From assembly GCF_000784835.1 (NCBI RefSeq), contig NZ_JSFH01000007.1, forward strand, positions 124,001 through 188,000: a stretch of 64,000 nt of DNA. The letters are read 5' to 3'. Source of the DNA: Thermotoga sp. Mc24. GTDB lineage: Bacteria > Thermotogota > Thermotogae > Thermotogales > Thermotogaceae. The position numbers were made by a program, and so were the translations under genes. Under the pieces are notes generated by a model. It was not told where the DNA came from, ran no database searches, and saw only the letters and a list, made by a program, of their open reading frames with translations. Numbering within the stretch: position 1 is the first letter of the stretch; each line of letters opens with the position of its first letter. Positions 43,740 through 44,764 of this stretch are shown here, one piece after another.

Positions 43740-43778
43740 TTGACTTTTTCTCATATATATATGTAAAATACATATATA
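43740..43778 (+). promoter_or_regulatory. Promoter overlapped by a perfect palindrome (DUF5320 cassette)
   Basis: -35 TTGACT (43740-43745), 18-bp spacer, -10 TAAAAT (43764-43769). A perfect 10-bp inverted repeat, arms TATATATGTA (43756-43765) and TACATATATA (43769-43778) around AAA, covers the -10 and the start-site side. This is the geometry of a repressor operator. Confidence 0.65.
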
Positions 43779-43790
43779 GGAGGTGAGAAT

Positions 43791-44000
43791 ATGTGGTGGA
43801 GCAGAGGATACGGATGGAGAAGAGGCTGGAGGAGAGGATTCGGTTTTGGAGGAGGACCGTGGTGGGCTTACTACGACTATCCTCCAGTGCCGCCTTCTCC
43901 TGAAGAGGAAAAAGAAATGCTTCTGGATTACAAAAAATACCTGGAGGAAGAGCTCAGATACGTTGAAGAGAGGTTGAGAGAGCTTGAAAACAGGAGGTGA
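43791..44000 (+). CDS. Small Trp/Arg/Gly-rich protein with C-terminal coiled coil
   Basis: 69 residues. The first 25 are W/R/G/F-rich, then a P-rich hinge (YDYPPVPPSPEEE), then a K/E/L helix (MLLDYKKYLEEELRYVEERLRELENRR). This layout occurs in small proteins next to DUF5320 proteins in anaerobes. Function unknown; the tail looks like a dimerising coiled coil. ATG at 43791 follows AGGAGGTG. It sits directly behind the palindromic promoter and four bases before the next gene's binding site. Confidence 0.8.
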   Translation: MWWSRGYGWRRGWRRGFGFGGGPWWAYYDYPPVPPSPEEEKEMLLDYKKYLEEELRYVEERLRELENRR

Positions 44001-44005
44001 GCGAT

Positions 44006-44209
44006 ATGCCAAGGCTCGACAGAACGGGTCCGCTGGGACTTGAGCCGATGACAGGCAGAGGTCTTGGATGGTGCAGGTTCGGTGGTAGCTGGGCGAAACC
44101 CCGGGAATGGTGGAGAGGTTTTGGTTGTGGATGGAGAAGAGGCTGGCTATTTGGAGTGGGCCTTGCCTGGAGACATAGAAGAGGATGGGGATGGAGAGGC
44201 TGGTGGTAA
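44006..44209 (+). CDS. DUF5320-type small protein
   Basis: 67 residues beginning PRLDRTGPLGLEPMTGRGLG, which matches the conserved 'DRTGP.G.GPMTGRG.G' start of DUF5320 proteins, with Cys at 21 and 38 and then a W/R/G-rich tail. These proteins often lie beside MBL-fold hydrolases and dinitrogenase-cofactor-like (NifX/NafY) proteins; their function is unknown, but metal handling has been suggested by context. ATG at 44006 follows AGGAGGTGA. A strong terminator follows the stop by two bases. Confidence 0.85.
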   Translation: MPRLDRTGPLGLEPMTGRGLGWCRFGGSWAKPREWWRGFGCGWRRGWLFGVGLAWRHRRGWGWRGWW

Positions 44210-44211
44210 TA

Positions 44212-44241
44212 TGAAGGGGGTATCAACCCCCTTCAGTTTTT
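44212..44241 (+). terminator. Rho-independent terminator after the DUF5320 cassette
   Basis: 10-bp perfect stem TGAAGGGGGT / ACCCCCTTCA (44212-44221, 44226-44235), 4-base loop, then G and TTTTT. It separates the two small genes from the decayed MBL gene. Confidence 0.92.
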
Positions 44242-44257: not shown

Positions 44258-44764
44258 ATGCGAATACACGTTCTCTGTGATGATTCATCTCGAAATGGAT
44301 TTGAAAGCGAACACGGTTTTTCTGTGCTTGTGGATTCCGTTTTTTTCGATACAGGGAAATCCAATGTGTTTTTCAAAAACGCTCGAAAGCTGGGAATTGA
44401 ACGCCGGAGGATGTGGTCATCAGTCATGGTCACTACGATCACGCAGGGGGCTTTCGTATCTTTCAGGAAAGAGAGTGTAGCTCAGACTGGATCCGAAGTA
44501 TTCCGGAGAAAGATACGCAGGAGCCGATTGGGATGAAATACTGAGAAAGAACGCGGTGAAGCTCGTGATCGAAGGAATCACCGACTTCTGAGATCTTCCG
44601 ATGATGAGATAGAGAAAATCGTGAGGGTCTTCAACGAGCTCGGAGTTGAAACTGTGGTTCCCTGTCACTGCACGGGTGAAAGAGCAGTTTACATCTTCAA
44701 AAGAAAATTTCTCGGGAAAATCATGGATTGCTGTGCAGGTTTGAAATTTGAGGTTTCAAACTGA
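44258..44764 (+). pseudogene. Decayed MBL-fold metallohydrolase (COG1237-like)
   Basis: The remains of one gene are spread over three frames. Frame 1 from ATG 44258 gives MRIHVLCDDS ... FDTGKSNVFFKNARKLGI. The next frame, from about 44404, carries the metal motif VVISHGHYDHAGG. The third, from about 44451, gives YLSGKRV, an in-frame TAG (44478-44480), then DPKYSGERYAGADWDE and a TGA at 44589. The first frame returns at 44597 with VVPCHCTGERAVYIF and the stop at 44762. Three frame changes plus a nonsense codon, and only about 168 residues where I expect around 250, show long decay. The family includes the methanopterin-pathway-like hydrolases. The binding site CGGAGGG is intact. Confidence 0.88.

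Follow-up and report, generated by a model that had tools for sequence, protein, structure and literature searches.

Organization of the locus

The window analysed here is the whole stretch of 64,000 nucleotides from Thermotoga sp. Mc24 (contig NZ_JSFH01000007.1, positions 124,001 to 188,000 of the forward strand), and positions given without a contig label refer to it. An earlier note on this DNA, made from the sequence alone, had reported a palindrome, two genes for proteins of 69 and 67 residues and a terminator, all of which were found where it placed them. The locus comprises the following features:

43740-43769, + strand: sigma-70-type promoter TTGACT-N18-TAAAAT, from a consensus scan, its -10 element within the palindrome
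43756-43778 (arms 43756-43765 and 43769-43778), no strand assigned: operator palindrome TATATATGTA-AAA-TACATATATA, perfect 10-bp arms around a 3-nt centre
43778-43787, + strand: ribosome-binding site AGGAGGTGAG of gene 1
43791-44000, + strand: gene 1, 69 aa, C-half of DUF5320, with a disordered W/R/G-rich head and one helix (residues 37-68)
43992-44001, + strand: ribosome-binding site AGGAGGTGAG of gene 2, identical to that of gene 1 and overlapping the end of gene 1
44006-44209, + strand: gene 2, 67 aa, N-half of DUF5320, with a DxTGPxGxxPMTGRGLGxC motif followed by a W/R/G-rich tail, pI 12
44212-44235, + strand: intrinsic terminator TGAAGGGGGT-ATCA-ACCCCCTTCA, a 10-bp stem with a downstream T run
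44258-44764, + strand: remnant of a metallo-beta-lactamase-fold (MBL) gene that sister species carry intact (255 aa)

The palindrome spans the -10 box and the predicted transcription start. For its core pattern, with 8-bp arms and up to 3 mismatches allowed, the window contains one match where chance predicts 0.02, and the full palindrome has no second copy in the 1.82-Mb genome when up to 3 mismatches are allowed. It is unchanged throughout the genus (consensus ATATATGYANNNTRCATATAT), and in a seven-genome alignment the upstream region is variable except at the TTGACT hexamer, in the core of the palindrome (ATATATGTA-TACATATAT) and at the ribosome-binding site. The near-consensus promoter described earlier does match 10 of 12 consensus positions, but one such match was found where 1.1 were expected by chance in the region; since the score is not significant alone, the promoter call rests on conservation, TTGACT being kept in all seven genomes of the genus.

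The earlier note had recognized DUF5320 in the second protein only. This assignment stands (Pfam PF17253, profile positions 1-61, E 8.9e-10, 40.1 bits), but the first protein is a DUF5320 member as well (profile positions 39-99, E 2.8e-11, 44.9 bits). Both exceed the curated cut-off of 27 bits, each spans one half of the profile and jointly they cover it in full; the usual form of the family, a TGPxGxGPMTGRGxGxC motif and a C-terminal coiled-coil in one chain, is not seen here, and the Pfam cut-off does not demand it. In a single-sequence model of the gene 1 product, pLDDT is about 50 in the head and 91-98 over most of the helix. The alignment of N-halves shows an invariant motif with a single invariant Cys, and gene 2 has unusual residues at two conserved positions (G6R and G13E). 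Between species of the genus, dN/dS falls mostly at 0.04-0.15 in gene 1 and at 0.08-0.5 in gene 2, which supports the coding status of both. We infer that a DUF5320 gene was duplicated and that its two copies retained complementary halves, because the C-half comes before the N-half, an order that points to tandem duplication with complementary loss and disfavours the splitting of one gene by a plain stop codon.

Several components of the system are disrupted in this strain. Downstream of the cassette, the MBL gene carries several indels as well as a deletion of some 250 bp, and an operon on contig C9 described below (G000:C9:186370-188770, G000 being the genome of the window) has interruptions in its second MinD gene, its NifX gene and its radical-SAM gene; all of these genes are intact in genome G091. 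The cassette may therefore retain little function here, and the broken genes may themselves reflect assembly error.

An operator shared by iron-sulfur genes

The earlier claim that the palindrome controls the cassette gains support from comparison among genomes. Absence of the palindrome upstream of homologous cassettes, which would have spoken against the claim, was looked for, and the same palindrome was instead found upstream of such cassettes across Thermotogota. Genome-wide, operator matches with at most one mismatch occur in 36 of 103 Thermotogota genomes. Among 37 operator sites checked, 33 lie 10-60 nt upstream of the start of a gene for DUF5320, a MinD-type ATPase of the [4Fe-4S] kind, a ferredoxin or a PadR protein, and the other four have none of these genes behind them. 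In two genomes (G079 and G080) the palindrome lies over the -35 element, not the -10, and in two others (G039 and G041) it is present in two copies, as expected of a repressor site.

The cassette had been seen as an isolated two-protein system, a picture that no longer holds, since its promoter is one of three regulon promoters in this genome. A slightly relaxed pattern finds three operator sites there, all at regulon promoters:

43756-43778 of the window: site 1, before the DUF5320 pair, present in 7 of 7 genomes of the genus
C7:36165: site 2, before a 12-aa peptide, a ferredoxin and NifX, present in 6 of 7 genomes of the genus
C9:185480: site 3, before MinD-MinD-NifX-ferredoxin-radical SAM, also present in G091

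The operon promoters of the regulon are of sigma-70 type with the palindrome, and the only two NifX genes of the genome both lie within operator-controlled operons. Both NifX proteins of G091 match, over their full length, the structures 1RDU and 1T3V/1O13, which we take to be TM1290 and TM1816 of T. maritima. Behind site 2 and ahead of the ferredoxin-NifX genes lies a 12-codon gene (G000:C7:36106-36144, minus strand) for the Cys/Trp peptide MRKVCQCWWCGY, whose pattern MRK[VI]C[QWRH]CWWCG[YH] recurs in 7 of 103 Thermotogota genomes (G000, G091, G092, G093, G094, G096 and G002); it is possibly a metal-binding or leader peptide. The genes, their family, regulon membership and operator conservation, like the correspondence between PadR and operator described below, are direct products of the computation, and on this comparative basis the palindrome would appear to be a conserved on/off switch for the cassette and for NifX-like, ferredoxin and iron-sulfur ATPase genes.

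The iron-uptake genes feoAB were considered as a fourth target and rejected: the sequences before them come no closer to the operator than 4-5 mismatches and contain a separate palindrome that resembles a Fur box. An operator-like site in one genome, with 1 mismatch to a relaxed pattern, was not counted. Within the genus Thermotoga, the feoAB promoters (L352-L357) share an AT-rich element, conserved some 90-100 nt ahead of feoA, together with the Fur-box-like palindrome; this does not make a convincing PadR operator.

Distribution and neighbourhood of DUF5320

Of 103 Thermotogota genomes, 68 contain PF17253. Very often it takes the form seen here, a C-half gene next to an N-half gene, while in other families of the phylum the chain is full-length. 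In GTDB genomes, a scan returned 360 DUF5320 relatives from anaerobic bacteria and archaea, usually of full length and some with a shorter companion. No plasmid-borne homologues of gene 2 were found. Of 80 DUF5320 neighbourhoods drawn from many phyla, 48 include MinD and 46 include NifX. Downstream of the pair, relatives often have genes for two MinD-type ATPases that contain ferredoxin domains internally (PF01656/PF10609 plus Fer4), one or two Nitro_FeMo-Co (NifX-like) proteins, a ferredoxin with a GRGMGRG-type tail, radical SAM and MBL proteins, and PadR. Some neighbourhoods in these many phyla include a DUF134 regulator or one of the Fur or DtxR type, the latter two being classic metal regulators. 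A metal or redox response had been suggested earlier for the cassette, and from these neighbours a metal-linked role is plausible.

G/R-rich tracts are common to the DUF5320 proteins, the ferredoxin tails and the PadR heads of the regulon. Small G/R-rich zinc-ribbon-like proteins also adjoin DUF5320 in other phyla (L163, L167, L185, L192, L194, L199 and L203).

The cassette had also been called the nearest approach in this DNA to an undescribed system. The family occurs widely among anaerobes, next to NifX/MinD machinery that is already known, so the cassette is not categorically undescribed; the regulon itself was not found in the open literature searched, which yielded no description of a PadR-linked iron-sulfur or metal regulon, and open-access literature held nothing relevant on DUF5320, TM0937 or the T. 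maritima locus.

Relation to known iron-sulfur systems

The explanation that we favour, and hold to be reasonably probable, is that the cassette is one unit of a PadR-controlled regulon whose DUF5320 proteins likely act as scaffold or storage partners of NifX-like proteins. Two described systems bear on this. The NifX relatives include the Desulfovibrio orange protein ORP (2WFB), and the ORP complex (orp operons, MrpORP) likewise combines an ORP-homologous NifX-like protein with Fe-S P-loop ATPases (PMC6345978, PMC3897727). An ORP-homologous NifX/Nitro_FeMo-Co protein (PF02579) was found under the same control here, while the sigma-54 promoters of ORP were not; where ORP relies on sigma-54 with DVU2106, the present system has the palindrome and a candidate PadR at sigma-70-type promoters, and it differs further in having DUF5320, a GRG-tailed ferredoxin and the 12-aa peptide, and ATPases that carry internal ferredoxin domains (PMC6345978, PMC3897727). 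The second system is IssA of Pyrococcus furiosus, a sulfur-induced NifX-domain protein that stores thioferrate and has a W/G/R-rich cationic tail (PMC5524996). Both systems have a NifX-type domain and a cationic, disordered segment rich in W/G/R and aromatic residues; the segments are similar in composition and pI, with 16 Gly, 14 aromatic and 13 cationic residues of 67 (pI 12.0) in gene 2 and 15 Gly, 14 aromatic and 7 cationic of 70 (pI 10.7) in the IssA tail, a likeness that is compositional and not one of homology, and while the NifX domain of IssA is fused to its tail, the W/G/R segments here are separate proteins (PMC5524996). Taken together, these comparisons suggest a small regulon, in anaerobic thermophiles, of ORP/IssA-like NifX-MinD machinery that probably handles iron-sulfur or metal-sulfide, and by analogy with the IssA tail the W/R/G-rich proteins may bind anionic metal-sulfide.

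Alternatively, the DUF5320 proteins might help to assemble or localise an ORP-like MinD/NifX complex without binding metal-sulfide themselves, for example with the helix and the G/R/W tracts linking the ATPase to NifX. The constant company of MinD ATPases, the predicted helical tail, the N-half with only one invariant Cys and the G/R-rich tracts, present also in the operon ferredoxin and in PadR heads, are all in keeping with such a role, but the free-standing pair keeps its operator even where it is alone with a broken MBL gene, and its W/G/R composition is closer to the proposed thioferrate-binding tail than to a typical interaction domain; we regard this alternative as possible, though rather unlikely. 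A bolder form of the storage idea would make the DUF5320 pair a two-piece IssA tail acting in trans, which binds anionic metal-sulfide from NifX-like proteins while the PadR head senses the same species. This we consider unlikely; if true, product and sensor would share one binding chemistry.

A PadR-family candidate regulator

For the palindrome, the earlier note had envisaged a regulator of the ArsR or MarR type, and the best candidate proved to be a PadR-family protein instead. Of the two PadR genes in the genome, that at G000:C10:95191-95547 belongs to the type that occurs in regulon operons, and its match to T. maritima TM0937 (2ESH) extends over 118 of 118 residues; this ortholog has a G/R/W-rich head, as do regulon-type PadRs generally. 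Regulon-type PadR proteins L115-L117 and L119 come from genomes that lack DUF5320 (G058-G060 and G062).

Published PadR half-sites are ATGT/ACAT at a spacing of 8-10 nt (PMC3506622, PMC5050560). The operator here is an ATGT-N5-ACAT inverted repeat over the -10 box, so that the half-sites and their position over the promoter agree while the spacing, at 5 nt, does not. In common with known PadR repressors, there is a PF03551 wHTH protein and an ATGT/ACAT operator over the promoter, but besides the shorter spacer the predicted regulator has a G/R/W-rich N-terminal head, and its predicted targets are iron-sulfur genes where known PadR proteins target drug pumps or phenolic-acid decarboxylase (PMC3506622, PMC5050560).

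The departure in half-site spacing, and the fact that the PadR gene of this genome is not adjacent to the operators and has no operator of its own, would also fit another transcription factor, such as a global regulator, as the reader of the operator, with PadR genes only travelling with the operons. Two observations argue against it. PadR genes of the regulon type sit within DUF5320/MinD/NifX operons in several families, and once (L075) the operator stands directly before PadR-DUF5320-NifX. Moreover, in family f3 the DUF5320 operons have a PadR with a different recognition helix and a different operator, TATCANTARTGATRT, while in the same genomes the MinD operons with the usual PadR retain the usual operator. 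The operator type thus switches with the recognition-helix type, both pairs being in the same genomes, and a putative cognate PadR whose specificity follows the operator is represented here by the TM0937 ortholog. This correspondence within genomes is the best evidence for PadR, and a reader of another kind seems decidedly improbable to us. The operator is thus probably read by the PadR-family repressor orthologous to TM0937. The regulon-type PadR is nearly universal in Thermotogota, genomes without DUF5320 included, so the presence-absence correlation of PadR and operator is weak, and since the TM0937 ortholog has no Cys, a mode of iron or sulfide sensing by PadR is hard to explain.

A reading of the cassette as a stress or nucleic-acid-binding pair of RGG-like type that stands alone, with no functional tie to iron-sulfur genes, accords with its R/G-rich, cationic, disordered segments but is highly implausible given the operator shared with NifX/ferredoxin/MinD units in the same genome and the strong neighbourhood association across phyla.

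Proposed mechanism and significance

In the mechanism that we infer for the favoured PadR-controlled regulon, which extends to repression, PadR binding, the signal and the biochemical role, a PadR repressor would bind the palindrome over the -10 region and keep transcription blocked until the repressor is released by a signal, probably the status of iron/sulfide or metal-sulfide. Three units would then be expressed: (i) the DUF5320 pair, (ii) the operon of the 12-aa Cys/Trp peptide, ferredoxin and NifX, and (iii) the operon of the [4Fe-4S] MinD-type ATPase pair, NifX, ferredoxin and radical SAM. One member of the pair would supply the N-terminal motif and one conserved Cys on a cationic W/R/G-rich half, and the other a W/R/G-rich half with a helical tail. 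Together they may serve as small scaffold or storage partners of NifX-like proteins by binding anionic iron-sulfide or another metal-sulfide, with the MinD-type ATPases and ferredoxins loading, moving or delivering clusters.

Such a regulon would unite DUF5320, two solved NifX-like proteins, MinD-type Fe-S ATPases and a 12-residue peptide under one control, and would give the orphan crystal structure TM0937 (2ESH) a testable function. It would also offer an entry into iron/sulfide handling in strict anaerobes, which has so far been studied mainly through IssA and the Desulfovibrio orange protein.
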